In this document: positions 4,701-34,082 of the stretch, one piece after another | Position numbering within the stretch: the stretch's first letter is position 1 | How the letters are laid out: each line of letters begins with the position of its first letter | Virus record (IMG/VR): IMGVR_UViG_3300029265_000685 | Coordinates: 1-53,830 of that record | Source of the DNA: a virus | Reading direction: 5' to 3' (one strand) | DNA length: 53,830 bases | The notes under the pieces: model-generated | Seen by the model: only the letters and a program-made list of their open reading frames with translations | Database searches by the model: none | Told to the model about the DNA's origin: nothing | Translations under genes and position numbers: made by a program

Positions 4701-4726
4701 ACCCAAATTTAAAAACAAATTAGTTC

Positions 4727-5050
4727 ATGAAAAGATACGGAGGAATACAACAAATTAGAAATACAAACATTAATGCTGGTCCTCTTCGTGCACCTTATTA
4801 TAAGACTGTTTTGTACCCCGAAATCCCACCCAATCCAAATGATATTTGGGTTATTACTGACTTTGGGGATAGATTAGATTTACTAGCAAATCAGTTTTAT
4901 GGGGATGTAACCTTATATTGGATTATATCCTTAGGGAACCCAAACTACATAAGTTTTGGTTCATTATTTATTAATGAGGGAACCCAAATACGAATACCAG
5001 TTGACATTAATGGTATTTTAAATAGTTATAACACTTTAAATGAAATATAA
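4727..5050 (+). CDS. 53: baseplate wedge protein, gp53-like with LysM-type fold
   Basis: 107 residues. The core, about residues 45-90, reads DRLDLLANQFYGDVTLYWII followed by an NPNYI turn and an EGTQIRIP strand. This is the LysM-like pattern of T4 gp53 and related tail proteins. gp53 joins neighbouring wedges in the baseplate. The 107-residue length is shorter than T4 gp53 (about 196), so this is a compact version reduced to the LysM part. The stop codon is followed immediately by the start of the hub-like gene at 5051, indicating translational linkage. Confidence 0.75.
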   Translation: MKRYGGIQQIRNTNINAGPLRAPYYKTVLYPEIPPNPNDIWVITDFGDRLDLLANQFYGDVTLYWIISLGNPNYISFGSLFINEGTQIRIPVDINGILNSYNTLNEI

Positions 5051-8000
5051 ATGGCACTTCTCGGAAACCCCTTTACAGATTATGTAACCAAACAAATAAA
5101 CACCCGTCAGAAAGCACTAGGAGAAGGATTAGGTGATGGATCTGATATTAATCGAATTCAATCACTCCAAGCCTATAATACATCAACACCTTGGATGCGT
5201 TTAGCTAGTGCCGTCAAAATTACTAAAGGTGATGAAGCAAAACCAGGTAAATCCGTATACAAACAAATTTTAGATAGTGGTTTATTATTAGGTATACCCG
5301 AAAACGAATGGATAAATACAGGCTTAGCAAAAAGATTCGTATTAGAAGGTGCCCCAAATTCTTATGAGGGAGATAGCAAACCTGAGGGTGTAGCTAGTCC
5401 CGAAAGTAATCCTTTCTTATCAGCTTATGGGTGGGGTTATAACTCAAGTGGGATTACACATGGTCAGGGATATGTACCACCTCCGGGTGTAACAAGTGTA
5501 GATTTTGAATATAAAAATGACGGTGCTCTAGCCTTTGCAAGTATAAAAATCAAGGCTTTTAGTCGAGAACAATTTGCAATGATTGACATTCTCTATATGA
5601 GACCAGGATATACATGCCTGTTAGAATTTGGTCATACTTCAGGGATAATGAATGATTTATCCACATTAAGTATCGATAATTCTCAAACTGACCCCTTAAA
5701 ATATTTATTTGGTGGTGATAGTAAACCACCTAGCTATTCAACAATGGCCAAAAAAATATCTAAAACGAAAGATACATGGAATGGTAATTATGAGGGATTT
5801 TTTGGTAGGATAACTAAATTTGATTGGAAATTCAATTCTGATGGGAGTTATGATATTACTGTAAAACTAACAGGTTTGGGTGATGTCATATCTTCTTTAA
5901 AAGTAAACATAGCAAAACAATTTAAAGCACCAGTATCAATTGAATCAGATTTTATAGGTAAACTAGAAGTAGATGAAACTGAAGATGCCAAAGAAGTAAG
6001 TTCATTCATAATTAGTAACGCATATGCCTCCCAATTAAATTTTGACTTGTACTCTATATTTGCTGATAAAAATCAATTTAAGGATTCTTTCAACGTATTT
6101 TTGGTAAAGACTAATGAAAACGCAACTTCATATCCATTACCCCTAAAAAACATACCCATAAACGGTCAGGAAGAAAGTTTCATTATCCCTGGTGGTGTTG
6201 TAAAGATTGATATTAATGATTATGGTGGGACTATTTACTCCCCTACAACATTTATTAAATTCGGGGGTTTTTTATCCATGCTTCAAAAAATATGTAATAT
6301 AACAGATGGTGGTGATAATTCATTCCTCCAATTTGAAATGGTGGAGGATGTATCATCCGATATTAAGAACGATTTCACCCCCATAGTTAATGATACTTTC
6401 ATAGCTACATATCCTGGTAATTTTTCATCTAATCCTAATAAATGTTTGATTAAAGTATCTAAGATGATAGGTAGTAAGGATATTTGGCCTACAGGATTTA
6501 AACCAAAAATTATTGTAGATTCAATAATAAATGATGTTCTTACTAATAATTACGACACCGCACCAGAATCAACAGATCCTATACAACAACTAGAAAATCC
6601 TAAATTAGCCTATACTTTGAGTGAAGTTTATGTTAATATAAACTATATTTCTACTATATTAAGTGGTTTGATGGGTGGAGATGAAGCAGCCGAGGGTGCA
6701 TTAGATGTTTCAATTCTCGACCTACTAAATGGTGTTCTTAGTGGTATAAATTCAAGTCTAGGGGGATTAAATACTTTTAGAGTAATATATAACGAAGACA
6801 CATCTCAAGTCCAAATAATTTCTGAAAATCCAATTTTAAGTTCTAAAAAGACACCAGAAAAACCATTTGCAATATTCAACACATATGGTTTTGAAAGAGG
6901 AACTGTAAATCAAGGGTCATTTATTACATCTTTTGATCTCAACTCAGAATTAACAGATCAGATGGCTACTCAAATATCAATTGGTGCTCAATCCAATAGT
7001 AATACTATTGCGGGTAATGCTACAGCATTCTCATCATATAATAAAGGATTAATAGATACCCTATTTGTAGATAAAACACCATCTATAGTTGCAAATACTG
7101 ATGGAGATAATGGAGATAATGGAGAGGTTGAAGTAGTTGATGAAATTATGGATATGTGGAGAGAATCAAGTGGAACCGGTACTATGGGGGAAATTTATGA
7201 TGATAGACAACTAGATGAAGATTCATATATACAAACTTTAGATAGTTTAAATAATAACATATCTCCCGTTATAATGGGGAGATTAAATAATACAAAAAAA
7301 GCTCCATCACCTTTTTTCCTCCCATTTAATATGAGTTTAACAATGAATGGTTTAGGGGGAATGAAAATTTATGATGCTTTTAAAATTACAGGTAAAGGTT
7401 TACCTTTAAGTTATAACCCCGATGTAATAAAATTACTTATAAAAAGTCTATCCCATACTGTGAGTTTAGAGGGATGGAAAACCAGAATTTCAACCATAGC
7501 TCAACCTATATTCAAAATTGACACATCAGAAGGAAACATAAAAGCCGAAGAAGGTGAATATATTAGAAAATCATCAAATTCAGACACAGTAGCAGGTAAT
7601 GATGTTGCTCCACCCCCAGGTATAAAACCACCATCCGATGAAAAATTAAGAATAAAACTATACAGGATAATGGATGATGGTACCCAAACATTAGGGATAA
7701 TGCAGGTTTTAGCCGAGGATGAAAAAACAGTAATAATGACAATGGCAACATCAGAACTCCCTTGGAAAGGTAATAGAAATGGTGTAAGTTGTATCCCAGC
7801 TGATGATTATAGGGTTAAATCCCACGTAAGTCCCAAACATGGGAAGTGTTTTTGGTTAATAGGAAATGCACAGGGTAACTATGCTTATAATAGAATATAT
7901 GGTAATGGTTTTACCAGAGGATCAATATTAATACACTCATCTCCCAAAGCACCGGGTTGGTTAGAAGGTTGCATAGCTCCTGGTATTAAATTTAATGACG

Positions 8001-8233
8001 CTGATAATCAAAAGGGAAGACAGAAGGGAACCGGTAAATTCTATTTAGATCCCTCTAAATCTCAATCAAATCAAGCTGTTGGTTTATTAATTAATAAACT
8101 ATATGCTGAAGGCTCATTTAAAATGAAAATTATGAATCAAGGAGGAGGTAACAGTGAAAGTCTCCCAAAAACATTTAATGCTGAAGTAAGAAAAATATCA
8201 AAATCCGTTAAACTATTACCAAACCCTAAATAA
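5051..8233 (+). CDS. baseplate hub-like protein with C-terminal DUF5675-like domain
   Basis: 1060 residues. About residues 100-300 contain a beta-rich region (VDFEYKNDGALAFASIKIKA and following) resembling hub/spike platform proteins. The middle is unrecognised. About residues 855-1010 match the DUF5675 pattern: LYRIMDDGTQTLG, then NGVSCIPADDYRV, then a Gly/His segment with ILIHSS and a Cys near GWLEGCIAPG. DUF5675 domains occur in tail-spike and lysis-associated phage proteins and may act on peptidoglycan, which would parallel the lysozyme domain of T4 gp5; the activity is inference. It starts right after the gp53-like gene, and its last base is the first base of the next ATG (TAATG overlap). 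Confidence 0.6.
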   Translation: MALLGNPFTDYVTKQINTRQKALGEGLGDGSDINRIQSLQAYNTSTPWMRLASAVKITKGDEAKPGKSVYKQILDSGLLLGIPENEWINTGLAKRFVLEGAPNSYEGDSKPEGVASPESNPFLSAYGWGYNSSGITHGQGYVPPPGVTSVDFEYKNDGALAFASIKIKAFSREQFAMIDILYMRPGYTCLLEFGHTSGIMNDLSTLSIDNSQTDPLKYLFGGDSKPPSYSTMAKKISKTKDTWNGNYEGFFGRITKFDWKFNSDGSYDITVKLTGLGDVISSLKVNIAKQFKAPVSIESDFIGKLEVDETEDAKEVSSFIISNAYASQLNFDLYSIFADKNQFKDSFNVFLVKTNENATSYPLPLKNIPINGQEESFIIPGGVVKIDINDYGGTIYSPTTFIKFGGFLSMLQKICNITDGGDNSFLQFEMVEDVSSDIKNDFTPIVNDTFIATYPGNFSSNPNKCLIKVSKMIGSKDIWPTGFKPKIIVDSIINDVLTNNYDTAPESTDPIQQLENPKLAYTLSEVYVNINYISTILSGLMGGDEAAEGALDVSILDLLNGVLSGINSSLGGLNTFRVIYNEDTSQVQIISENPILSSKKTPEKPFAIFNTYGFERGTVNQGSFITSFDLNSELTDQMATQISIGAQSNSNTIAGNATAFSSYNKGLIDTLFVDKTPSIVANTDGDNGDNGEVEVVDEIMDMWRESSGTGTMGEIYDDRQLDEDSYIQTLDSLNNNISPVIMGRLNNTKKAPSPFFLPFNMSLTMNGLGGMKIYDAFKITGKGLPLSYNPDVIKLLIKSLSHTVSLEGWKTRISTIAQPIFKIDTSEGNIKAEEGEYIRKSSNSDTVAGNDVAPPPGIKPPSDEKLRIKLYRIMDDGTQTLGIMQVLAEDEKTVIMTMATSELPWKGNRNGVSCIPADDYRVKSHVSPKHGKCFWLIGNAQGNYAYNRIYGNGFTRGSILIHSSPKAPGWLEGCIAPGIKFNDADNQKGRQKGTGKFYLDPSKSQSNQAVGLLINKLYAEGSFKMKIMNQGGGNSESLPKTFNAEVRKISKSVKLLPNPK

Positions 8234-8898
8234 TGTACATACCTTTAAATAAAATAATAACAAATCTATACACATCGGGTAATGAATATGTAACGGTGTC
8301 TGATAAGAAAGATTATGTTGGGTTCTACTTCAAAACATATGAGGGGAGATTTTACACCGGTAAAACACCCAACGATACACCTGTAGTTGAATTAATAAAA
8401 GAATCCTCTACCATGGATAGTATATGGAATCTAACCTTCGACGAGGAAGTATTTACACAATATGCGGACAATTACGATGGTGAAGTCGTCCCAGGACAAT
8501 ATCAAAATTTAATTGACACAACAGTTTATAATAAATTAAAAAAAACAAATATATCACAAACAAAACTAGTTCCCCAACAATCATTTCCATTCCCAACCGA
8601 GATGGATTATAATTTAGGCTCATTCACTAGGTATTTCACAGTAAAGACAAATGAGGAATCATATTTAGAAATTAATAAAGATACATTTACTAATTTATTT
8701 AATCAAAATCCCACTTGGGGGTGGATACCATATACAATCTTCAAATTAACTTGGACTTTAACAGGGAATGAGGAAGAGGTAGAAAAATCAAACTACAACA
8801 TCACACTAATTAGAGAATCAAATTTAAAAAGAGCAGGTTTACAACAATTTTTAAGATTTAATTATTTAAAATTCTACCAATCAAACTTGGAATTATGA
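8233..8898 (+). CDS. probable virion protein, unknown function
   Basis: 221 residues, no signal peptide or membrane helix, aromatic-rich. The N-terminus contains YVGFYFKTYEGRFYTGKTPN, a pattern I associate with conserved hypothetical structural proteins of marine tailed phages, but I cannot name a function. It overlaps the hub-like gene by one base and is the last gene before the first early-type promoter at 8887, so it probably ends the late structural operon. Confidence 0.6.
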   Translation: MYIPLNKIITNLYTSGNEYVTVSDKKDYVGFYFKTYEGRFYTGKTPNDTPVVELIKESSTMDSIWNLTFDEEVFTQYADNYDGEVVPGQYQNLIDTTVYNKLKKTNISQTKLVPQQSFPFPTEMDYNLGSFTRYFTVKTNEESYLEINKDTFTNLFNQNPTWGWIPYTIFKLTWTLTGNEEEVEKSNYNITLIRESNLKRAGLQQFLRFNYLKFYQSNLEL

Positions 8899-8915
8899 TT
8901 TAAGGTTCGTATATT
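8887..8915 (+). promoter_or_regulatory. early/middle-type promoter P1
   Basis: TTGG at 8887-8890, 19 bases, then TATATT at 8910-8915 preceded by TTCG. Same layout as twelve other sites in the window. The ATG of the family A polymerase-like gene follows 20 bases after the box. The upstream element overlaps the end of the preceding gene. Confidence 0.75.
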
Positions 8916-8935
8916 TACCCTAAATAATAAAAGTT

Positions 8936-10195
8936 ATGTATTGGTTAGTTGAAACACAACAACAATTAAAGGAGTTATATGATAGTGATTTCGAAGAAGC
9001 CTTCGTCGAGATAATCCCATACTCAAATACAATTCACCCGGTTGAAAACTCGGTGTGTGCGTTTTATATTAGGCCGTTAAATTCAACAAAAGGATACATT
9101 GCATCCATTAACCATAGTGAGGCGTTATCACTCAATATAGACGATGTAAAACACGTATTAAACAAATATAAACACCTATACGTTAGGGATAAGAAAGAAT
9201 TTCTACATTATTTAATTTTAAAAGATCTTTACGACATAACATTAAACTCACCTACGTATATACAAGAATATACTCAAGCACACTCACATTTCTACTACAA
9301 ATATCCCAATAAAAAAGACATTAACCGCATTATTCCGATTGTGAAACATTATGAATATTGTGAAAAGACATTTCATACTTTAAAAGATAAAATAAATGAA
9401 CCCATCAACGAATTTTACAACAACAATGCCACAGTGGTATTCAACGCCATCGAGAGAAGTGGTTTACGAATTGATAGAGATGAATTCCAATCGCGTTTTC
9501 ATAATATCGATGGAGAATACGTCTACACGCAATTCAACTTCAAAACACTTACAACCAGACCCTCAAATAAATTTAAAGGAGTAAATTATGCCGCAATTAA
9601 TAAAGAAAATGGAGATAGGAAATCTCTTATACCAAGGAATGATTTACTTTTTGAGTTGGATATTAGTGCTTACCACCCTACTCTTTTGGCTAATTTGGTC
9701 GATTTTGACTTCGGCAGTGAAGACATCCATAGTTCATTTGCCGAGATGTATGGAGTGGATTATAAGAAAGCAAAAGAATTAACATTTAAACAAATGTATG
9801 GGGGAGTTTTCGATCAATATAAAGATCTAGAATTTTTTCAAAAAGTACAAGTATATACTGATGAGATGTGGGCTCGATATCAAAGTGAGGGTTTTATTGA
9901 ATGTCCTATTTCAAAGTACAAATATAAACGAGATGAATTGCAAGACATGAAACCTCAAAAGTTGTTGAATTACTTACTACAAAACTTGGAGACCGCAACT
10001 AATATTCGTATATTGTGGGAAATGTTTAGAATATTGAGAGGTGCTAAAACAAAGTTAGTTTTATACACATATGATTCATTCACTTTCGATTTAGACAAAA
10101 CAGAAAAACCAGTTATAGAAGAAATATTAAAAGTTTTTACAAAATACAAGTTACAAACAAAATTTAGTTATGGAGACACATATGATTTTAAATAA
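8936..10195 (+). CDS. divergent family A DNA polymerase-like protein
   Basis: 419 residues. The C-terminal half carries the ordered motifs of family A polymerases: a TTTGRLS-like segment near residue 199 (NFKTLTTRPSN), motif A with Asp242 in ELDISAYHP, motif B near residues 277-290 (KKAKELTFKQMYGG, matching the usual RxxxKxxxFGxxYG), and motif C with Asp380 in YTYDSF. In motif C the usual HDE is YDS, so the catalytic Asp is kept but the following acid is lost. About residues 1-165 show no recognisable proofreading exonuclease. The same window encodes a family B replicase, so this may be a repair or specialised polymerase. Identification rests on motif order and spacing. Confidence 0.7.
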   Translation: MYWLVETQQQLKELYDSDFEEAFVEIIPYSNTIHPVENSVCAFYIRPLNSTKGYIASINHSEALSLNIDDVKHVLNKYKHLYVRDKKEFLHYLILKDLYDITLNSPTYIQEYTQAHSHFYYKYPNKKDINRIIPIVKHYEYCEKTFHTLKDKINEPINEFYNNNATVVFNAIERSGLRIDRDEFQSRFHNIDGEYVYTQFNFKTLTTRPSNKFKGVNYAAINKENGDRKSLIPRNDLLFELDISAYHPTLLANLVDFDFGSEDIHSSFAEMYGVDYKKAKELTFKQMYGGVFDQYKDLEFFQKVQVYTDEMWARYQSEGFIECPISKYKYKRDELQDMKPQKLLNYLLQNLETATNIRILWEMFRILRGAKTKLVLYTYDSFTFDLDKTEKPVIEEILKVFTKYKLQTKFSYGDTYDFK

Positions 10196-10643
10196 AACAA
10201 CCAATACGTATAAGGTGGATGACTTCCAGGATTTTACCTCATTAAATATACGCGATTTGAACAATAAACTATTTTGCACATTTACTACACTTGAAGACTT
10301 AGATGCTTTGATTAATAGTATAACATCTAAATATGATGTCATGTACAACAAAATATTTGTATTATATATTAAGAGCAATGATGAGTACGTTTGTACTTAC
10401 AACATTGATCAAGCTAATGTAGCAGATATTCCACCAAATACAATTTTAGTCCACAGAAAAAAAGATTCTAATACACTATACACTATTAATGCCTTAAATG
10501 AGTTAATTAAAGGGTTAAATGGTGGAGTAGTCGATACTAGATTCCCAATTGATTGGCAACATTATAGAAATACAATATTGTTGACTCAACATGATGAGTT
10601 AAAGCAATTAAAAACAAAAATACACAAAATAATTGAATTATAG
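10170..10643 (+). CDS. hypothetical protein overlapping the polymerase-like gene
   Basis: 157 residues, soluble, no recognised domain. The ATG at 10170 overlaps the upstream gene by 26 bases; an in-frame ATG at 10182 is an equally plausible start. Composition is ordinary for the window. It is probably co-transcribed from P1 with the polymerase-like gene. The next gene has its own promoter, so this ends the two-gene unit. Confidence 0.6.
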   Translation: METHMILNKTTNTYKVDDFQDFTSLNIRDLNNKLFCTFTTLEDLDALINSITSKYDVMYNKIFVLYIKSNDEYVCTYNIDQANVADIPPNTILVHRKKDSNTLYTINALNELIKGLNGGVVDTRFPIDWQHYRNTILLTQHDELKQLKTKIHKIIEL

Positions 10644-10673
10644 TTTGGCTATCCAAACAATCGTTCGTATATT
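10644..10673 (+). promoter_or_regulatory. early/middle-type promoter P2 for gp32
   Basis: TTTGG at 10644-10648, 19 bases, TATATT at 10668-10673 with TTCG before it. The upstream element lies in a short inverted repeat, GTTTGG-CTAT-CCAAAC at 10643-10658, which could also act as a weak terminator for the previous gene. The gp32 ATG follows at 10705 after an A-rich leader. Confidence 0.8.
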
Positions 10674-10704
10674 ATCGTTATAAATAAAAATAAATAGTTA
10701 TATT

Positions 10705-11544
10705 ATGGATTTAAACGTCATCAAGAAAAGACTGGAGTCATTGAACAAACAGTCAACAAACAGTGGAGGTGGAAATAAAAACCTCTTTTGGAAACCCTCA
10801 GTTGGAAAACAGCTTATTAGAGTAGTTCCTTCAAAATACAATAAATCAAATCCCTTTACGGAGATGATGTTTTATTATGGTATTGGTAGTAAAAGAGTAA
10901 TGGCTTCACCAGCAAATTGGGGTGAAAAAGACCCAATTGTAGAATTTGCCAAACAACTTCGTAATTCAAACGATAAAGAAAATTGGCGTTTAGCTAAGAA
11001 GTTAGATGCTAAAGTTCGTACATTTTTACCTATCATCGTTCGTGGTGAAGAAAGTGAAGGTGTTAAATTGTGGCAATTCGGTAAAGAAGTTTATCAAGAG
11101 TTTTTAAATATGGCTGCTGATGAAGAAATCGGTGATTTTACTGATATTGCTCAAGGTAGAGATATTAAATTAACTACTGTAGGACCTGAAGTAACAGGAA
11201 CACCTTACAACAAAACATCAATAGGACCATCATTAAAAACTACAGCATTATCTGAAGAGGAAGATATGATTAACACCTTGTTAGAAAACCAAGCAGATCC
11301 CATGAAAGTATTCAAACCACTTACATATGAGGAAATGAAAGGAGCACTTCAAGAATGGTTATCGCCCGAAGGAGAAGAAGAGGATTCTATTTCATCAGAA
11401 CCCTCAGTCGCTTTTGATAGTGATAAAAAATCATCTAATTACTCAGTAGATACTAAACCATCAGTAGTTAAACAATCTAAATCAGCACAATTCGATGATT
11501 TATTTAAGGATGATAGTGACAAGAACGATGATTTACCCTTTTAA
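10705..11544 (+). CDS. gp32: single-stranded DNA-binding protein gp32
   Basis: 279 residues. After a Lys-rich N-terminus comes the gp32 core pattern (FWKPSVGKQLIRVVPSKYN, then an FYYGIG segment), followed by a Ser/Asp/Glu-rich linker and an acidic tail ending DDLPF. gp32 coats ssDNA in replication and recombination, and the tail docks partner proteins. There is no cysteine anywhere, so the zinc-binding site of T4 gp32 is absent. Next comes uvsX, its usual functional partner. Family assignment is strong; the missing zinc site is directly visible. Confidence 0.9.
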   Translation: MDLNVIKKRLESLNKQSTNSGGGNKNLFWKPSVGKQLIRVVPSKYNKSNPFTEMMFYYGIGSKRVMASPANWGEKDPIVEFAKQLRNSNDKENWRLAKKLDAKVRTFLPIIVRGEESEGVKLWQFGKEVYQEFLNMAADEEIGDFTDIAQGRDIKLTTVGPEVTGTPYNKTSIGPSLKTTALSEEEDMINTLLENQADPMKVFKPLTYEEMKGALQEWLSPEGEEEDSISSEPSVAFDSDKKSSNYSVDTKPSVVKQSKSAQFDDLFKDDSDKNDDLPF

Positions 11545-23568: not shown

Positions 23569-23784
23569 ATGGCTTTAAAAAAACAAACAATACGAGGTTT
23601 AGAAAAAATAACACTGAATGGTGATTCTACTACTAAAGAAGAATTAATTACTCTGAGTGAAAGCTGGAGTGAAAATGAAGAGTTAGTAGTAAGAAAAATC
23701 CTCCAACAAGGTGGAAAGTGTAAAATTGGGAAGGATGTTATAGCTGTAGTCCGCCCTGATGAAGTATACAGTTTAGTAAGATAA
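23569..23784 (+). CDS. small hypothetical protein in the preQ0 block
   Basis: 71 residues, soluble, with a Lys-rich N-terminus and a short beta-like C-terminal half (KCKIGKDVIAVVRPDEVY). No family recognised. It is separated by 24 bases from the previous gene and by 52 from queC. Function unknown; retention in the block suggests a small accessory. Confidence 0.55.
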   Translation: MALKKQTIRGLEKITLNGDSTTKEELITLSESWSENEELVVRKILQQGGKCKIGKDVIAVVRPDEVYSLVR

Positions 23785-23836: not shown

Positions 23837-24685
23837 ATGCAGATGAAATTAGATTTCGAACAAGAAAAACACGTAGTAGTATCACTCTCAGGTGGTATGG
23901 ATAGCTCAACATTATTACTTAGATGTTTAAAAGAATATGACACAGTAACTGCAATATCTTTTGATTATGGTCAAAAACATAGAGTTGAGTTAGAAAGAGC
24001 TCAATCGTTAATTGATTATCTAGAAGAAAATGGACATAAAGTAAACTATAAACAAATTAAATTAGATGGTTTATCAAGCTTATTGGACTCAGCGTTAGTT
24101 GAAGGTGGTAAAGAAGTTCCTGAAGGACATTATGCGGATGATAATATGAAAGCTACAGTTGTCCCTAATAGAAATAAAATATTTGCTTCAATTGTCCAAG
24201 CGGTAGCTTTATCCGTTGCTAATAAATCAGGAGAAACTTGTAATATCGCTTTAGGTATCCATGCTGGAGATCATCAAATTTATAAAGATTGTAGGCAAGA
24301 ATTTCGTGATGCTGACGATGCTGCTTTTAGAGAAGGTAACTGGGATGCTGAACGTGTGGGTTATTTTACTCCTTATCTTCTTGGGGATAAATATGATATT
24401 CTCCAAGATGGGGTAGCGCTATGCGAATACTTATGTATAGCATTTGACGACGTATATGCTCGTACTATCACATCATACAAACCTATATTTAATAAAGAAA
24501 CATTCGAATGGTATGCAGATTACAAATCAGCATCAAGTGTTGAACGTATTGAAGCATTTATAAAACTGGGTAGACCTGATCCTTCACAATACGCAGATGA
24601 GTCAGGTACTGTAAGTTGGGAAGTAGCGGTAGACCATGTAACTAAAGTATTAGTATTAAAAGCAGTAGTAGAACAATTAAAATAA
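23837..24685 (+). CDS. queC: 7-cyano-7-deazaguanine synthase QueC
   Basis: 282 residues. The PP-loop ATP-binding motif SGGMDSS lies at 18-24, followed by FDYGQKHRVEL and VVPNRNK, standard for QueC. The enzyme converts 7-carboxy-7-deazaguanine and ammonia to preQ0 using ATP. The C-terminal zinc cysteines of bacterial QueC are absent: where the Cys cluster is expected the protein reads YKSASSVERIEAF, so only the flanking SS-ERIEAF/DP landmarks remain. It belongs to the same transcript as queD and queE. Confidence 0.9.
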   Translation: MQMKLDFEQEKHVVVSLSGGMDSSTLLLRCLKEYDTVTAISFDYGQKHRVELERAQSLIDYLEENGHKVNYKQIKLDGLSSLLDSALVEGGKEVPEGHYADDNMKATVVPNRNKIFASIVQAVALSVANKSGETCNIALGIHAGDHQIYKDCRQEFRDADDAAFREGNWDAERVGYFTPYLLGDKYDILQDGVALCEYLCIAFDDVYARTITSYKPIFNKETFEWYADYKSASSVERIEAFIKLGRPDPSQYADESGTVSWEVAVDHVTKVLVLKAVVEQLK

Positions 24686-24690
24686 AATAA

Positions 24691-24951
24691 ATGAGTGATC
24701 GAGAAATAATGGATGGTAAAAAATATGAGATGGGTAATATTGAAAATTCACCATTTAAAAAAACAAGACGTTCTAAGAAAAAGAAAAAACAACAACTCCC
24801 AGATGCTAGAAAACATCAAATTGTAGGTTTTGTAAAATCTATAGTAAGGATTGCCGGATATATCCTTATTCCTTTTAATTTGGAGTCTGCGGTAATTCTT
24901 CTTATATTGAGCGAAATAGTAGTTAGAATTTTTCTTCCAGAATTAGTATAA
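24691..24951 (+). CDS. small basic membrane protein
   Basis: 86 residues. A very basic stretch (RRSKKKKKQQ) at about 27-36 is followed by two adjacent hydrophobic segments at about 48-62 and 65-80. It lies 5 bases after queC. A basic head with membrane tail suggests an inner-membrane protein touching nucleic acid or phospholipid; the function is unknown. Confidence 0.5.
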   Translation: MSDREIMDGKKYEMGNIENSPFKKTRRSKKKKKQQLPDARKHQIVGFVKSIVRIAGYILIPFNLESAVILLILSEIVVRIFLPELV

Positions 24952-24970
24952 ATTATAAAATAAATAAAAT

Positions 24971-25222
24971 ATGAATAAATTAATTTACATATCGAGTACA
25001 TGGTGTCAACCCTGTAAAACATTCTCACCCATAATGGATAAAGTATCATCCTCAGGTATTCCAGTACAAAAATTAGACGCTGATAAAGATCAGAATGCTT
25101 TAATGCAGTATGGTGTGAGGAGTATCCCAACAGTAGTTAAAGTAGATGCAAATGGGAATATGGTCGATAAATTTACAGGAGTAAAACAATTTCAAGAAAT
25201 AATTAATTTTTATAATAATTAA
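24971..25222 (+). CDS. thioredoxin-like protein
   Basis: 83 residues with active-site WCQPC at 11-15, a DADKD segment and the cis-proline loop SIPT near residue 51. This is a compact thioredoxin fold, shorter than host thioredoxin (about 105), closer to NrdH/glutaredoxin size. It can supply electrons to ribonucleotide reductase. The adjacent genes are for preQ0, so it could alternatively support a redox step there. Confidence 0.88.
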   Translation: MNKLIYISSTWCQPCKTFSPIMDKVSSSGIPVQKLDADKDQNALMQYGVRSIPTVVKVDANGNMVDKFTGVKQFQEIINFYNN

Positions 25223-25223
25223 A

Positions 25224-25688
25224 ATGGGAAAATTTCAATCGAGTAAAGTATTTGACGGATTCTCAACAGTATTTCGTCAGTGGAAAGCAGAAGATACTCA
25301 TTGTAGGTTTCTACATGGTTATGGTATATCTTTTAAAGTATATTTTGAAGGTGAATTAGATGATAGAAATTGGGTTTGGGATTTTGGAGGCATGAAAAGA
25401 GCTAAGACATTAATTGATGGTAAACAACCTAAAGAGTGGATGGATTTTATGTTTGATCATACTCTCATTGTAGCTGAAGATGATCCTGGAATGGGTGGTT
25501 GGAATACGATGAATGATTTAGGTGTAATCCAACTAAGAATTATTGAAGCTACTGGTGCCGAAAAATTCGCTGAATTTATTTTTAACAAATTAAATCCATT
25601 CGTACTAGAAGAAACTGATGGTAGGGTTAGAGTTACTAAAGTTAAATTCATGGAACACGGAAAAAATGCTGCATATTACGGTGAATAA
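25224..25688 (+). CDS. queD: 6-carboxy-tetrahydropterin synthase QueD
   Basis: 154 residues of the 6-pyruvoyl/6-carboxy-tetrahydropterin synthase fold: FSTVFRQW near 13-20, Cys27 and His31 in CRFLHGYG, WDFGGMK near 52-58, and FDHTLI near 77-82. It converts dihydroneopterin triphosphate to carboxy-tetrahydropterin, step two of the preQ0 route. The usual second His of HGH is Tyr33 and the His of FSxxH is Phe17, so zinc ligation differs from E. coli QueD; related variants exist in many bacteria, as I recall. It starts one base after the thioredoxin stop. Confidence 0.85.
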   Translation: MGKFQSSKVFDGFSTVFRQWKAEDTHCRFLHGYGISFKVYFEGELDDRNWVWDFGGMKRAKTLIDGKQPKEWMDFMFDHTLIVAEDDPGMGGWNTMNDLGVIQLRIIEATGAEKFAEFIFNKLNPFVLEETDGRVRVTKVKFMEHGKNAAYYGE

Positions 25689-25708
25689 CCACTTAAAAAA
25701 TTATAAAA

Positions 25709-26491
25709 ATGGAAAAGTTAAAAAGGGTAGAAGATTACGATAAAACTTTACCCATTGTAGAGATTTATACAGCTGTACAATCAGAGGGAAGCCGAGCTGG
25801 TTATCCAACAGTGGTAATTAGAACTACAGGGTGTACCCACAGGTGTCATTTTGGTGAAGGAGGTTGGTGTGATTCCTTTTATACCTCAATTCACCCCGAA
25901 AAAGGCACATTTAGTTTTAATGACATAATTGAAGCATATAAGAAAAATCCTCATATAAAAGAGATGATGTTAACTGGAGGTTCTCCAACTATGCATCCAG
26001 CTTTAGTAAATGAATTAACACATTTTGCTCATGAAAACGATATTTTCATTACTATTGAAACTGAAGGCTCGCATTTTCTACGCACTGATTATCCGATTAA
26101 TTTATTATCGATTTCTCCTAAATTCTCGAATTCAATCCCTGCTGTTGGGGTAAAAACACCCCAAGGTGGAATCACTGATGAGAGAATGATAAATAAACAT
26201 AATAAGCTTAGGCTTAATTATGGAGCAATAAAACGATCTATTGAATATCACTTAGACTACCACATAAAACCAGTATGGGATGGTAAAGATGAGGGTGCAT
26301 TAGCTGAGATTATAGAATGTATTTCTATATTAGACGTTCCTCAAGATAAAGTATGGTTTATGCCCGCTGGGGATTCAAGAGAATCATTATTTAAATCATA
26401 CCCTCTAGTATTTGATTGGGTTAGAGATAATGGTTATAGAATGACTTGGCGCCCACATATTATAGCCTTTGAAGACGCGAGAGAGGTATGA
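25709..26491 (+). CDS. queE: 7-carboxy-7-deazaguanine synthase QueE (radical SAM)
   Basis: 260 residues. QSEGSRAG at 24-31 and the SAM cluster cysteines 42, 46 and 54 (CTHRCHFGEGGWCD) are followed by LTGGSPT near 89-95 and ETEGS near 113. QueE rearranges carboxy-tetrahydropterin into the 7-deazaguanine ring, using a 4Fe-4S cluster and SAM. The cysteine spacing is CX3CX7C, with five residues inserted relative to the common CX3CX2C; other QueE subfamilies also have inserts here. It is the third enzyme of the pathway encoded in this window. Confidence 0.9.
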   Translation: MEKLKRVEDYDKTLPIVEIYTAVQSEGSRAGYPTVVIRTTGCTHRCHFGEGGWCDSFYTSIHPEKGTFSFNDIIEAYKKNPHIKEMMLTGGSPTMHPALVNELTHFAHENDIFITIETEGSHFLRTDYPINLLSISPKFSNSIPAVGVKTPQGGITDERMINKHNKLRLNYGAIKRSIEYHLDYHIKPVWDGKDEGALAEIIECISILDVPQDKVWFMPAGDSRESLFKSYPLVFDWVRDNGYRMTWRPHIIAFEDAREV

Positions 26492-26516
26492 TAACGTTTA
26501 AAGAAAATAAATAATT

Positions 26517-26693
26517 ATGGAAAACGTAGCAAAAGAAATAGTTGCAGGTATTAATAAAACAACTAATGATTATGATGCCGCCGAAGAAGTAGATAGGATA
26601 TTAAAGAAATATTTAGTTAAGAGAAAATCCCAAAAATATGAAAGAACTAATAAATCAGAAATCAATAGAAATTCAAACCAAGATAATAGCTAA
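26517..26693 (+). CDS. 58-residue hypothetical protein overlapping the phosphoribosyltransferase gene
   Basis: A short frame encoding 58 residues, hydrophilic and charged, starting MENVAKEIVAGINKTTNDYD. Its last 56 bases overlap the start of the phosphoribosyltransferase gene in another frame. The first 38 residues look like a designed helix and the overlapped C-terminal part is Asn/Ser/Arg-rich, as expected of an overprinted tail. No family recognised. The leader AATAAATAATTATG matches other starts. Confidence 0.5.
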   Translation: MENVAKEIVAGINKTTNDYDAAEEVDRILKKYLVKRKSQKYERTNKSEINRNSNQDNS

Positions 26694-27141
26694 TCAAATT
26701 ACAGCGAAACATAAGGATGATAAAACATCTATTGTTATGGTTGGTTTACTTAATGGTTGTTTTGCGTTTTACAGCGATTTAGTTCGAGCTATGCCAATTG
26801 ATGTGGAATGTGATTTTATGCGCGTTAAATCGTATATAAATCGCAAACAAGGTGATATAAAAATCACTAAAGACTTAGAGACACCTATCAAAGGTAAGCA
26901 TGTTTACATCGTAGATGATATCTACGATACAGGTAATACAATGAAAGCCGTAATTGAATATTTAGAAGTTAAAAACCCATCATCAATATCGATAGCAACT
27001 TTAATTACAAGAGAAACTAGTCCTATTCCTACCCAACCCTTATTTAATGCTTTTACTATTAAAGATGAATGGGTGATCGGATTTGGAATGAATAATGATA
27101 AAGGATATTGCAGAAATTTACCTTCAATTTGGGCTCTGTAA
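26638..27141 (+). CDS. hypoxanthine/guanine phosphoribosyltransferase-like protein
   Basis: 167 residues of type I PRTase fold. The PRPP-binding motif VYIVDDIYDTGNTM lies at about 88-101, preceded by GLLNGCFAFYSDL near residues 36-48 and a Lys-containing strand DVECDFMRVKSY. The C-terminal EWVIGFGMNNDKGYCRNL matches HPRT proteins. It salvages a purine base to its nucleotide using PRPP. Its place between queE and folE suggests purine or deazapurine handling. Substrate specificity cannot be read from sequence. Confidence 0.78.
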   Translation: MKELINQKSIEIQTKIIANQITAKHKDDKTSIVMVGLLNGCFAFYSDLVRAMPIDVECDFMRVKSYINRKQGDIKITKDLETPIKGKHVYIVDDIYDTGNTMKAVIEYLEVKNPSSISIATLITRETSPIPTQPLFNAFTIKDEWVIGFGMNNDKGYCRNLPSIWAL

Positions 27142-27157
27142 ATAATGTTCGTATATT
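27128..27157 (+). promoter_or_regulatory. early/middle-type promoter P8 for folE and the split polymerase genes
   Basis: TTTGG at 27128-27132, 19 bases, TATATT at 27152-27157 preceded by TTCG. The upstream element lies within the last codons of the phosphoribosyltransferase gene, so the promoter is nested in its 3' end. The folE ATG follows at 27182. Confidence 0.8.
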
Positions 27158-27181
27158 ATAGTATAAATAAAAAAGTTATAA

Positions 27182-27877
27182 ATGGAAAATAAACGTAGAA
27201 AAATCCACGAGGAGTTAGAAGTGGTGCAAACAGGTTTTGCTAATGGGGTTGCTGAGGGTTTTCCTCTAAGTGATGATGCAAAACAAGAAATGATTAATGA
27301 AGCAACTATCGCTTATGGTAAATTTTTAGATGCACTAAAGTGTGATTGGAGGAATGATCCAAATTCTATGGAAACACCAAAAAGAGTTTCAAAAGCTTAT
27401 GTAAATGATTTATGGTCAGGTAGATATACAGCAATGTCTCCAATAACTTCATTCCCATCTGATGGTTATGATGGTATTATTATTGAACGTAATATACCTT
27501 TAACTAGTATGTGTAGTCACCACCACCAAACAATTAGTGGTGTAGTTCATATTGGATACATTGCCGGAGAAGAAGGTCAAGTAATTGGTTTATCTAAATT
27601 GAATAGGATTGTAGAATTATTTGGTAGAAGAGGAGCAATACAAGAACAATTAACATCAGCTATCCATGGAGCTACAGATAAAATTACTGAAGATAATTTA
27701 GGTGTAATTGTAACAATTGTAGCAGGTCATTCATGTGTAAGTTGTAGAGGTGTTAAACATTCGGGTGCTTCAATGGTTACAACAAAAGCCTCAGGAGTAT
27801 TTAGAGAAAATGGTAATAATGCTCGTAAGGAGTTTTTTGACAGTTTAAAAATTAATAACGGAGGACATCAAATATAA
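27182..27877 (+). CDS. folE: GTP cyclohydrolase I FolE
   Basis: 231 residues. The zinc-binding MCSHHHQT (Cys111, His113/114) and HSCVSCRG (Cys185) are in FolE-I order, with GLSKLNRIVELFGRR between. It converts GTP to dihydroneopterin triphosphate, the first step of the preQ0 (and folate) route. It completes the four-enzyme set with queD, queE and queC, although it is transcribed from its own promoter P8. A pseudogene is unlikely because all ligands are present. Confidence 0.93.
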   Translation: MENKRRKIHEELEVVQTGFANGVAEGFPLSDDAKQEMINEATIAYGKFLDALKCDWRNDPNSMETPKRVSKAYVNDLWSGRYTAMSPITSFPSDGYDGIIIERNIPLTSMCSHHHQTISGVVHIGYIAGEEGQVIGLSKLNRIVELFGRRGAIQEQLTSAIHGATDKITEDNLGVIVTIVAGHSCVSCRGVKHSGASMVTTKASGVFRENGNNARKEFFDSLKINNGGHQI

Positions 27878-27891
27878 AATAAATAATAGTT

Positions 27892-28407
27892 ATGGAGAAA
27901 AATAAAAGTAATGTACAATTTATTGATGAAGTTGAGGAGTTTAATGCTACTATGGGTAAGCCAAATAACTACTCTCCTACAATTCCCGAAAAAAAAGAAT
28001 GGCAATTTGTTTATGATTTTGTTCTCGAAGAACTCGAAGAGTATAAAGCAGCCTGTGAGGCAGGTGATATTGTTGAGGTTCTTGATGCTTTATGTGACAT
28101 TGCCTACGTTTCATTTGGTAACGGCTCTATGTTACATGGTCTTAAGGATAAAATACGGCCAGCATATCAAGAAGTACAAGCGTCGAATATGTCAAAGGCT
28201 TGTATTAACGAAGAAGATGCACAAGCGACCGTTGAAAGACGTTCCGCTGAGCAAAAGACACCATGTCACTATGAGAAGGTTGGAGAATATTTTATTGTCT
28301 ATAGAACGTCGGATCGTAAAGTGATGAAAAACATTAATTATTTTAGACCAGATTTGAAACAATTTTTTACTGAAGATGAGATAAAGAATGCATCTTTAAA
28401 AGATTAA
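27892..28407 (+). CDS. MazG/PRA-PH-like nucleoside pyrophosphohydrolase
   Basis: 171 residues. EELEEYKAACEAGDIVEVLD followed by ALCDIAYVSFG near residues 43-75 gives the ExxE...D metal-binding arrangement of MazG and phosphoribosyl-ATP pyrophosphohydrolase folds. The C-terminal part is charged and unrecognised. Such phage enzymes hydrolyse unwanted nucleoside triphosphates or control (p)ppGpp-like signals. It lies between folE and the polymerase, so control of modified or normal dNTPs is plausible. Confidence 0.72.
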   Translation: MEKNKSNVQFIDEVEEFNATMGKPNNYSPTIPEKKEWQFVYDFVLEELEEYKAACEAGDIVEVLDALCDIAYVSFGNGSMLHGLKDKIRPAYQEVQASNMSKACINEEDAQATVERRSAEQKTPCHYEKVGEYFIVYRTSDRKVMKNINYFRPDLKQFFTEDEIKNASLKD

Positions 28408-28425
28408 TATAAAAAAATAAAAGTT

Positions 28426-30108
28426 ATGAGTTTCAAGAAATGTTTTGCTAAAAGATTAGGGGGGAATGATTATCTCATACACCTATGGACTGATGAGGGT
28501 GGTTATGAGAAGGTAGAATGGACTAACCAAGCCTATACTGAATGTGGGGAAGCTGATGCTTCCCACCTTGGTTTGAATGGTGAACCTTTACGTAAAGTTA
28601 GAAATTGGAATAGAGAAGATCCAAAACTCCACTTCCATGATATGACCCCATATCAAAAATTCCTAGTTGAAAAATATGGAGTTAATGATGAACCATCTAC
28701 AACTCAAAGGGAAATATTTTTCGATATTGAGATTGAAATGGGGGGAGCTCTTACCGAAGAATATATAAAATCAGCACCTAAGAAGGTTACATCAATTGCT
28801 TGGTATGATAAACAAGTTGATTTGTGGGGCATCTTAATATTAGATGCTAAGGATAATTTAAAACATACAAAAACTAAAAATCGGGAAATAATCCCATGTC
28901 GTACTGAAGATGAACTATTAATGAAGTTTATTGAGAAGTTTAGAGAAATGGATCCTGACATAATTGTAGGATGGAATAGTGATTATTTTGATATTCCCTA
29001 TTTATATTATAGAATGTGTAATGTTTTAGGACAAGATATTGCCCGTTATTTATCCCCAATTGGTTATGTTAGAGAAACTCCTTGGTATAAGGATCAATTC
29101 ATACAAATAGCAGGTGTAGAATCACTTGATTATATGCGTTTACATAAGAAATTTAGTTGGGCGGATGAACCATCATTTAAGTTAGATGCTATTGGTGAAA
29201 AATATGCTGGGTTAAATAAAATTGAATACGATGGAAATTTAGATGATTTATTTGAAGAAGATCCATTAAAATTTATTCAATACAACTTTAGAGATGTTGA
29301 AATACTTAAAGTATTAGATGAAAAGTTAGAATATTTATCCCTAGTTAAAAATTTAGCACATAAAGGTAAACATAATTATAGTGAGGTTTATGCTAATACC
29401 AAAACACAAGATGGCGCTATTTCAGCTTATCTATTGAGTAAAGGTATTGTTCCACCTGCTAAAGAACGCAACCCATTATCTAAGAAAAACTATGCTGGTG
29501 GATATTTATTTTGCCCTAAAGCAGGTATTTACAATTATATGTTTGATGAAGATTTAACTTCACTATACCCTTCAATTATTATGACTATTAATATTGGTAA
29601 GGAAACAATGATTGGGAGAATAATTGATGCTGATGATAGAAATAATCGTTTAGGATTAAATGATTTAAAAAAGAGAGATCCTGAGGAAGAATTAATGGTT
29701 GAAAATGCCAAACGTAGACGTACTAAAGTACCAGTATCTAAACTGGTTAGGATGATTGAAGAAAATAAACTCTCAGTCTCGGCAAATGGTGTTTTATTTT
29801 CAACAGATAATGAATCAGTATTAAGTACTATTCTAAAAAAATGGTTTGATGAACGTGTTTTATATAAAAATAAAATGAAAGAAGCATATCAAGCTGGTAA
29901 TAATGAATTAGGTGCAAGTTTTCATATGAAACAATATACGATGAAAATTTTACTTAACAGTTTATATGGAGCTACAGCATTAGGTAGTTTTAGATATGGT
30001 AATGTAATACTATCAGAAGCAATTACATTGTCAGGTCAAAGAATCATTCAAGAATCAGCTTTAACAGCAAATAGACACATGAATAAAGTAATTCGCAAAC
30101 AAATATAA
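28426..30108 (+). CDS. gp43A: family B DNA polymerase, N-terminal part (gp43A): exonuclease, motif A and motif B
   Basis: 560 residues. The exonuclease motifs are FDIEIEMGG near 98-106, IVGWNSDYFDIPYL near 181-194 and YNFRDVEILKVL near 287-298. Polymerase motif A is DEDLTSLYPS near 373-382 and motif B is KILLNSLYGA near 506-516. It ends after the motif B helix; motif C, DTD, is in the next gene. This is the T4 gp43 order, cut in the palm. The stop is two bases before the gp43B ATG. Both halves would have to assemble for activity. Confidence 0.92.
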   Translation: MSFKKCFAKRLGGNDYLIHLWTDEGGYEKVEWTNQAYTECGEADASHLGLNGEPLRKVRNWNREDPKLHFHDMTPYQKFLVEKYGVNDEPSTTQREIFFDIEIEMGGALTEEYIKSAPKKVTSIAWYDKQVDLWGILILDAKDNLKHTKTKNREIIPCRTEDELLMKFIEKFREMDPDIIVGWNSDYFDIPYLYYRMCNVLGQDIARYLSPIGYVRETPWYKDQFIQIAGVESLDYMRLHKKFSWADEPSFKLDAIGEKYAGLNKIEYDGNLDDLFEEDPLKFIQYNFRDVEILKVLDEKLEYLSLVKNLAHKGKHNYSEVYANTKTQDGAISAYLLSKGIVPPAKERNPLSKKNYAGGYLFCPKAGIYNYMFDEDLTSLYPSIIMTINIGKETMIGRIIDADDRNNRLGLNDLKKRDPEEELMVENAKRRRTKVPVSKLVRMIEENKLSVSANGVLFSTDNESVLSTILKKWFDERVLYKNKMKEAYQAGNNELGASFHMKQYTMKILLNSLYGATALGSFRYGNVILSEAITLSGQRIIQESALTANRHMNKVIRKQI

Positions 30109-30110
30109 CT

Positions 30111-31043
30111 ATGAAACATTTACAAGACGTACCATGGTGGATATGTGATCCCGAAGATATTAATTATGTAGCATACTCAGATACGGATTCTATCTATATC
30201 CATGCCGAACCATTACTTAAATTTCTATATCCTGACTTTGATGATATGCCTAGTGAGAAGAAAGATGATTTATTAGAAGAAGAAGCAATAAAATATCAAC
30301 ATATTATAACAGATTCATATAGTGATTTAGCTAGGGATTGTTTTAATGCTAAGGGAGAACATAGACTAGAAATGAAAACAGAATGTGTTATCAGATCAGC
30401 ATATTTTAGAGCTACTAGGCGTTATGCCCAATGGATTACTAAACAAGAAGGTATGACAAAGGAATCACTTGACGTTAAAGGACTAGAGTTTAAAAAAGCA
30501 AATTTCCCACCAGTGTTAGGTAAATTTTTTCATAAAATCCTCATTGATGTGTTAAAAGGCACAACACAACCAGAGATTGATGCTCGTGTCAAAGCATTTA
30601 GACAGCAAATATTAGACGGCACTATACCGCTAACTGAGTTAGGAAATCCCACATCAGTGAAAACATTAAATAAGTATACTGAACGTAAGGCACGTGCTGG
30701 GGAAATGATGACTACTGTTGCTAAAGGTGCACCAGCTGCTGTAAGAGCAGTTATTAGACATAATGATTTACTAAGATTTTGGGGGTTAAATGGTAAACAT
30801 AGTACTATTACTCAAGGTGATAAGGTTAAGTGGATTTATTTAAAATCAAACCCATATCACATTGATGCCGTTGCCTTTTTAGACTATGATATTGCAGATA
30901 AGGTTCGTACATTCATCGAAGAATATGCCGACCGTAGGAAAATTTTTGAATCAATATTACTTAATAAAGTCGAGGGGTTTTATGGAGATTTACAATGGTC
31001 ACTTAACCTCAACCCATATCGCGAAATGTTTTTTAACTTATAA
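30111..31043 (+). CDS. gp43B: family B DNA polymerase, C-terminal part (gp43B): motif C and thumb
   Basis: 310 residues. Motif C YSDTDSIYI lies at about 22-30, supplying the second pair of catalytic Asp residues. The rest matches the palm end and thumb: KTECVIRSAYFRATRRYAQW and GLEFKKANFPP, ending SLNLNPYREMFF with a hydrophobic tail that could bind the clamp. It begins two bases after the gp43A stop in a different frame (offset +2). Known T4-like relatives of Aeromonas have split gp43 with an endonuclease gene between the parts; here there is none. The frame before 30111 is open only to 30087, so true separation is favoured. Confidence 0.9.
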   Translation: MKHLQDVPWWICDPEDINYVAYSDTDSIYIHAEPLLKFLYPDFDDMPSEKKDDLLEEEAIKYQHIITDSYSDLARDCFNAKGEHRLEMKTECVIRSAYFRATRRYAQWITKQEGMTKESLDVKGLEFKKANFPPVLGKFFHKILIDVLKGTTQPEIDARVKAFRQQILDGTIPLTELGNPTSVKTLNKYTERKARAGEMMTTVAKGAPAAVRAVIRHNDLLRFWGLNGKHSTITQGDKVKWIYLKSNPYHIDAVAFLDYDIADKVRTFIEEYADRRKIFESILLNKVEGFYGDLQWSLNLNPYREMFFNL

Positions 31044-31054
31044 TAAAAAAGAAA

Positions 31055-31789
31055 ATGATAAATAAACTACTCATCCAAAGCATAATTAATAAATATTATC
31101 TAGGATTAACCGAATCTGTTAAATGGTCAATTAATGACAAAAAATTAAATATTGATTTTATGACTCCTAATAAGGATGTTATAGGGAGTGTTTCATGTGA
31201 AAATTTTGATTTAGAAGATAGTAAATTAGCTATTTATGATACTAAAAAACTTCAAAGTTTAATTAGTATCTGTAGTGGAGATTTACTTCTAGAATTAACC
31301 AAGAATAACGCCTTAAATACGAAACTACGAATATCAGATTTAAATTTTAACCTAACATATGCTTTATCAGATCCATTGTTAATTGGTAAAGTTGGTACTG
31401 TAAATGATGCTGAGTGGGTTGTAGAATTAAATTTAGAAGATGATGATGTAACTAACTTGATTAAAGCAAAGAGTGCATTAGCCTTAGTAGATAATATGAT
31501 AGTAACTACTTCAACAAATCTGGATAATGAGGATGTTATTGAATTTGTATTTGGCGATGAATCAGGCCATAATAATAAGATTACATATCAAATGTCAGGA
31601 ATTATCAAAGAACAAAATATGAAACTTCCATTTAACTCCGATATGTTAAAAACTATACTACAAGCCAATAAAGATATGGAAGGTGGAAAATTATATTTAA
31701 GCTCAATGGGACTTATGAAATTAGAATTTTCACACGAAGGAATTAAAAGTGAGTACTTTATGGTGAGAAGAACCGAAACCAACTTTTAA
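31055..31789 (+). CDS. gp45: sliding clamp gp45
   Basis: 244 residues of repeated beta-alpha clamp units, with LRISDLNFNLTYALSDPLLI near residues 90-109 as a landmark of gp45 proteins. It is a DNA-encircling trimer that tethers gp43 and, in T4, also activates late transcription with gp55 and gp33. It lies 11 bases after gp43B. The late sigma gp55 and gp33 are not recognised in the window. The length (T4 gp45 has 228) fits. Confidence 0.85.
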   Translation: MINKLLIQSIINKYYLGLTESVKWSINDKKLNIDFMTPNKDVIGSVSCENFDLEDSKLAIYDTKKLQSLISICSGDLLLELTKNNALNTKLRISDLNFNLTYALSDPLLIGKVGTVNDAEWVVELNLEDDDVTNLIKAKSALALVDNMIVTTSTNLDNEDVIEFVFGDESGHNNKITYQMSGIIKEQNMKLPFNSDMLKTILQANKDMEGGKLYLSSMGLMKLEFSHEGIKSEYFMVRRTETNF

Positions 31790-31807
31790 GAACAAGTTAA
31801 AAATAAC

Positions 31808-31836
31808 TTGGTTTTCCAATCAATAATTCGTATATT
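31808..31836 (+). promoter_or_regulatory. early/middle-type promoter P9 for the chaperonin genes
   Basis: TTGG at 31808-31811, 19 bases, TATATT at 31831-31836 preceded by TTCG. TTGGTTTTCCAA at 31808-31819 is an inverted repeat at the upstream element. The gene start at 31862 follows 25 bases after the box. Confidence 0.78.
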
Positions 31837-31861
31837 CACGTATATAAAAACAATAAAAAAT

Positions 31862-32179
31862 ATGAGCAACACTATTATTAAAGATCCTGCGATGGAACCG
31901 TACCACCTCAACAAAGATCAGTATTGTTATACTGTAGTGGAGACAATTACACCCGACAAGAAAAACCTAGGTAGGTTTGGGAATAAGGGTAATAAAAATG
32001 AGGGAAAGAATTATGAAAAAAATCTATCCCACCATAGTACACTAGGCTCAGCCTTAGGTAAAATTGCAAAGATGCGATTAGATGATAAACAGGATTATAA
32101 TTCTATTAGGGATTACCTAAATGAATTTGAAATACAAAAAGAAGAAATGAGAGAATTATTAACAAAAATAGGAATATAG
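31862..32179 (+). CDS. hypothetical protein preceding groES
   Basis: 105 residues, soluble, with a Lys-rich middle (NKNEGKNYEKN). The reading frame extends upstream to a TTG at 31808, but that codon lies inside promoter P9; the ATG at 31862 after an A-rich leader is the better start. The groES ATG follows one base after its stop. No family recognised. Conservation next to the chaperonins is unknown. Confidence 0.6.
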   Translation: MSNTIIKDPAMEPYHLNKDQYCYTVVETITPDKKNLGRFGNKGNKNEGKNYEKNLSHHSTLGSALGKIAKMRLDDKQDYNSIRDYLNEFEIQKEEMRELLTKIGI

Positions 32180-32180
32180 T

Positions 32181-32474
32181 ATGAAATTAAAAGCAATGTT
32201 CGATGCGGTTATCGTAAAAGCGTTAAAAGAAGAGGAAACGATGTATGGAAACATAATTGTTCCTGATTTGGGTAAAGATAAAAATGAACATGGTGAGGTA
32301 GTATCAGTAGGACCTGGTAAATACTCAGTTACAGGAGATCATTTTTTAAAAACCCAAATTAAAATCGGTGATGTAGTAGTTTTACCAACAATGGGATTTA
32401 CAAAATTAGAACATGATGGTGAGGAATATTTCGTAGGGCCAGAACAGCAAATACTTGCACAAATAGAAAAATAA
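32181..32474 (+). CDS. groES: co-chaperonin GroES
   Basis: 97 residues. The mobile loop EEETMYGNIIVPD lies near residues 16-28, and VVSVGPGKYSVTG, KIGDVVVLP and EEYFVGPEQQILA match Cpn10. The ring caps GroEL during folding. It fills the role that gp31 has in T4 capsid assembly. It is followed by a groEL gene after 12 bases, so both subunits come from the phage. Length equals bacterial GroES. Confidence 0.93.
   Translation: MKLKAMFDAVIVKALKEEETMYGNIIVPDLGKDKNEHGEVVSVGPGKYSVTGDHFLKTQIKIGDVVVLPTMGFTKLEHDGEEYFVGPEQQILAQIEK

Positions 32475-34082
<1,608 letters not shown>

Follow-up and report, generated by a model that had tools for sequence, protein, structure and literature searches.

The region 28426–31043 of the window (the whole stretch of viral DNA that was analysed, 53,830 nt, IMG/VR record IMGVR_UViG_3300029265_000685) contains two consecutive genes, gp43A and gp43B, which together correspond to a family B DNA polymerase of the T4 gp43 type. 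The main replicative polymerase of this uncultured T4-like phage is encoded as two proteins sharing one active site. The features of the locus are as follows.

28426..30108, + strand: gp43A, N-terminal part of the family B DNA polymerase, 560 aa, with the exonuclease, motif A and motif B (PF00136, PF03104; RB69 gp43, E 2e-45; phrog_262)
28717..28737, + strand: Exo I (FFDIEIE), D100 and E102 invariant in the alignment
28975..28998, + strand: Exo II (NSDYFDIP), from the alignment
29281..29298, + strand: Exo III (YNFRDV), from the alignment
29551..29580, + strand: motif A (DLTSLYPSII), from the alignment
29944..29970, + strand: motif B (KILLNSLYG), from the alignment
30106..30113, + strand: junction, with a TAA stop, 2 nt and an ATG start in another frame, at T4 gp43 residue ~607
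30111..31043, + strand: gp43B, C-terminal part of the polymerase, 310 aa, with motif C, the remaining palm and the thumb (phrog_262 565–842; predicted fold)
30111..30158, + strand: gp43B N-terminal arm (MKHLQDVPWWICDPED), from the alignment of relatives
30174..30191, + strand: motif C (YSDTDS), in gp43B
31055..31789, + strand: probable sliding clamp gene (gp45-like), next after gp43B, from its position and its likeness to the post-gp43 gene in relatives; no Pfam match

An earlier note on this DNA had placed the exonuclease and motifs A and B in one gene and motif C with the thumb in the next, two bases later and in another frame. The open reading frames, the motifs and phrog_262 agree on this partition, and the gp43A stop codon (TAA, 30106–30108) is indeed followed two bases on, in a different frame, by the gp43B ATG at 30111. 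In the alignments, Exo I, II and III and motifs A, B and C were all intact with their catalytic residues across the two proteins. gp43A covered positions 37–568 of the 856 of phrog_262 (E 4e-113) and gp43B positions 565–842 (E 3e-44), and the adjoining coverage indicates that nothing is missing between them. Pfam recognised DNA_pol_B and the exonuclease domain in gp43A and gave a sub-threshold match only for gp43B. gp43A aligned to RB69 gp43 up to residue ~609, and the AF2 model of gp43B resembled residues 602–900 of the same protein (Z 19.8, 3.7 Å over 284 residues). Together the two products display the exonuclease acids, the three polymerase motifs and, from the predicted fold, the C-terminal palm and thumb of a T4-type gp43. 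Within the gp43B arm, P8, C12 and N18 were invariant among the 62 distinct N-termini compared.

The translations from 23837 to 34082 included queuosine genes, a phosphoribosyltransferase (PRT), a GTP cyclohydrolase, the polymerase and a chaperonin; phage GroES and GroEL genes (32181–34082) came shortly after those for the polymerase and the clamp-like protein. PRT, GTP cyclohydrolase, DNA polymerase and heat-shock genes, together with queuosine genes, are described for Far-T4 clade 1 (PMC4360716), and the window phage, judged by gene content, fits this clade. The best INPHARED phage record was ~35% identical. MAG bins assigned to Flavobacteriales or Flavobacteriaceae contained two split relatives, and a Pelagibacter bin contained one relative of each kind, split and fused, phage binning being weak host evidence. 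Elsewhere in the window (8936–10195), a 419-aa protein contains LDISAYHPTLLANL, KQMYGG and YDSFTFD, which recall the palm of family A DNA polymerases; Pfam gave nothing for this protein, and its single PHROG match was marginal and of unknown function. It is possibly a divergent second polymerase.

Conservation and position of the cut

Scanning IMG/VR with gp43B returned 137 relatives and with a gp43A profile more than 590. From the best 80 of each scan, 150 loci held both the gp43A end and the gp43B start, representing 113 distinct gp43B. The earlier note had suggested that the split could be old and that relatives be compared; all of these 150 loci, spanning 57–100% identity and many metagenomes, were split at the window's site. 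The junctions included 65 ATGA overlaps and 75 segments with 200–2,300 nt of other genes. Counted over the 113 distinct gp43B, there were 44 ATGA junctions (4-nt overlap), four 1-nt overlaps, four gaps of 1–60 nt and 61 inserts of at least 200 nt. One virome contig (L001) possessed polymerase genes identical to those of the window and the same junction within different flanks. The dN/dS ratio was ~0.05–0.14 for both halves (window versus five relatives, with dS near saturation), a range which indicates that both are under purifying selection. The split is real and old, and many uncultured phages from the sea, forming a large group, share it. Single in-frame stops, which may be sequencing errors or true interruptions, were present in the otherwise intact polymerase frames of L184 (445–2223) and L285 (3414–5933), and in four loci (L035, L058, L378, L393) gp43A carried an extra C-terminal tail of 30–45 residues just before the junction.

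In the alignment with T4 gp43, the cut fell at residue ~607; motif B lies before it (561) and motif C after it (618). Split gp43 as a kind was already known from Aeromonas phages 25, 44RR2.8t and 65, where the parts are called 43A and 43B (Petrov et al. 2010, as cited in PMC2988022); as in these phages, a T4-type family B polymerase is made here from two adjacent genes. The same alignment located the cut of phage 65 at ~514 and that of 44RR at ~510, in the fingers and before motif B, so that the Aeromonas 43B holds both motifs B and C. The PHROG boundaries point the same way, as gp43A residue 489 marks the end of phrog_2062 (502 positions), and phrog_1918 starts at gp43A residue 484 and runs into gp43B. 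The two cut sites therefore differ, and the statement in the earlier note that the Aeromonas gene is divided at about the same place must be corrected, the Aeromonas cut being ~95 T4 residues upstream; its suggestion of an independent event is supported with respect to Aeromonas. The note also placed an endonuclease gene between the Aeromonas halves. Among the three phages examined this holds for phage 25, but 44RR has an untranslated spacer and phage 65 has neither; the absence of an intervening gene in the window was confirmed, the gap being 2 nt.

No report of a split at this site was found in the literature searched, preprints and most subscription journals lying outside the search, and the word "split" is absent from the Far-T4 paper (PMC4360716). 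Rhodothermus phage RM378, a cultured Far-T4 phage, has an annotated polymerase gene of 522 aa without an exonuclease domain, and unlike the window phage it keeps motifs A, B and C in one gene. The family B polymerase of Methanothermobacter thermautotrophicus is likewise made of two polypeptides (Kelman et al. 1999, as cited in PMC7776575), although that enzyme is archaeal.

Fused relatives, junction genes and the origin of the split

In the distant fused group around Microcystis phage Mel-JY01 (L235–L313), the polymerase was unsplit wherever both parts were present. Much closer fused polymerases were obtained from MAG bins in a scan of cellular genome assemblies (L321 and L322), and a virome scan provided further near-fused loci (L324–L332). 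The nearest unsplit relatives were 47–49% identical to the window in gp43B, and L321 and L322 shared its neighbours (the clamp-like gene and GroES, with GroEL in L321). The spacing from GQ(R) to DTDS was 47 residues in these near-fused loci and in the window, versus 30–31 in the distant fused enzymes. The near-fused linker is ~16 residues longer than in other gp43s and equals the tail plus arm length of the split proteins. An early idea that no fused enzyme has a counterpart of the gp43B arm was given up, the near-fused linker being equally long. Since the near-fused spacing matches that of the window, loop growth probably preceded fission, the cut being made inside the loop.

A quick tree joined the near-fused group to the split group L333–L349, within the split loci, with 98% SH-aLRT, which implies a second event besides one fission, either another fission or a re-fusion. 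The unsplit condition of the near-fused group could be secondary, produced by re-fusion of the two halves, and not ancestral. The two state changes needed by the quick tree and a linker as long as the tail and arm combined would both fit such an event, whereas with a mixture model the topology that unites the split loci in one clade was 5.2 log units better and was not rejected (p-AU 0.63), and the outgroup branch was very long. We regard re-fusion as possible yet rather unlikely, and a single fission is the simpler reading.

Following a single fission inside a grown loop, the junction would have taken in other genes, a homing endonuclease among them; in the window's branch it is empty. At least 11–12 changes of junction state were counted on the polymerase tree, which makes the junction a spot of turnover. 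The main occupant, F1 (~86 aa), was present in 62 of the 75 insert-bearing loci (49 of the 61 distinct insert-bearing relatives). Its family comprises proteins of ~70–94 aa with the motif SIRK...FRKMLKQGG. The junction form had no Pfam or PHROG match and F1 no endonuclease match; its AF2 model (pLDDT 80) had no PDB fold match and only weak BFVD matches. A sequence match to YetF (E 0.011) was not believed. The window has its own member of the family outside the junction.

23569..23784, + strand: F1-family gene, 71 aa, 5 kb upstream of the window's gp43

F1 was likewise outside the junction in four other empty-junction records and in one near-fused record (L402). No second copy was detected in the three junction-F1 records searched over the whole contig, and F1 was absent from four far-fused records, most records being fragments. 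The window's F1 need not simply have left the junction, because the F1 of the near-fused L402 genome is the one most like it; both relocation and old dispersal are possible. F1 might be a third part of the enzyme system, with an assembly or regulatory function helping or timing the joining of gp43A and gp43B, a role that we hold to be quite doubtful. If true, F1 would let phages control replication via active-site assembly.

The other inserts encoded DUF6165/DUF4254-like, Smr, cytidylyltransferase-like, cupin (mannose-6-phosphate isomerase type), DUF2452, SET-domain, methyltransferase-like, DAHP synthase, transaldolase and PLP-enzyme proteins. The insert genes often overlapped one another and gp43B by a few bases, in the style of a coupled operon. 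In three loci (L028, L073 and L184), a GIY-YIG homing endonuclease gene (phrog_314, E 1e-40) lay directly 3' of gp43A, and the profile of these three matched the gene 43 endonuclease of Aeromonas phage 25 (E 1e-13), so that the same endonuclease family is at the junction as in that phage. A homing endonuclease might have entered gene 43, broken it and later been lost, as the earlier note supposed when it invoked the loss of a mobile element. The presence of genes, GIY-YIG included, in the junctions of relatives agrees with that supposition, but the endonuclease sits at the junction in three loci only, too few to establish it as the cause, and the common occupant F1 has no endonuclease match. 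Invasion of an already split gene is equally possible, as is also said of phage 25 (PMC2988022). We consider this origin unlikely.

Proposed working of the two-part polymerase

In family B polymerases, the aspartates of motifs A and C jointly bind two metal ions, and neither half should therefore polymerise by itself. With motifs A and B in gp43A and motif C in gp43B, neither half has a full active site, so that the two must join; the earlier claim that both polypeptides are needed is upheld. We propose that gp43A contributes the 3'-5' exonuclease, the fingers and the motif A palm aspartate, and that gp43B contributes the two motif C aspartates, the remaining palm and the thumb. The two would form an obligate heterodimer, most likely 1:1, with the normal gp43 fold, and gp43A alone may keep exonuclease activity. 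The gp43A stop codon touches or overlaps the gp43B start (as ATGA in most close relatives and as TAActATG in the window), which would couple the translation of the two and give a ratio near 1:1. The break lies in the loop that connects the helix following motif B to the motif C strand. In an ancestor common to the window phage and the nearest unsplit relatives, this loop would already have gained ~16 residues; the fission would then have been tolerated and kept, in the order that we infer. The heterodimer has a precedent which backs it: in Aeromonas phage 25, the separate 43A and 43B proteins co-purify and polymerise (PMC2988022). We judge the whole account, from operon-made halves and coupled synthesis to heterodimer and fission in an expanded loop, very probable.

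Some fused protein could in principle be produced by a programmed -1 frameshift or by read-through. gp43B is in the -1 frame in the window and in the ATGA relatives, and several codons before the start are also open in this frame. However, no slippery site was found in the last ~270 nt of gp43A, its last in-frame slippery-type heptamer being at 29835, and in 75 loci fusion by frameshift is impossible because whole genes separate the halves. Such a mechanism is very improbable.

Joining of the halves after synthesis by a split intein or an intron is hardly credible: split inteins are known in Aeromonas phage PolB genes (PMC11923092) and apparent inteins were met here in two other phage PolB genes, but polymerase sequence reaches the gp43A end and the gp43B start, leaving no room for intein parts, none of which were seen at the junction, and an Rfam search around it gave no RNA family match. 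In the first of these two genes (L222, IMGVR_UViG_3300033146_001328, 5001–9084), PolB is broken inside motif C, between YGDTD and S, by an apparent split intein whose two halves flank a separate open frame that may encode an endonuclease. In the second (L082, LR756508.1, a 484-kb uncultured phage, 3364–11288), PolB has apparent inteins at motif B and motif C and is also broken between both by ~3 kb with several other open frames. The window gene resembles these two and Aes123 PolB1 in the interruption of the PolB coding sequence near catalytic motifs, and differs from them, where inteins splice the parts, by a junction without intein sequence.

A frameshift introduced by sequencing or assembly into an ordinary single gene, which the two-base gap and the frames one shift apart might suggest, is excluded by the junction shared with L001 and by the 150 split relatives with their ATGA overlaps or whole inserted genes, across the identities and metagenomes given above.

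Annotation pipelines will tend to overlook gp43B, as its Pfam match is weak and sub-threshold. The natural split point could guide the design of two-part polymerase tools. gp43A and gp43B represent a clade-wide, apparently stable replicative polymerase with its catalytic aspartates on two proteins, and the close fused relatives, with an expanded linker at the position of the cut, would allow a direct test of how the fission of an essential enzyme is tolerated.
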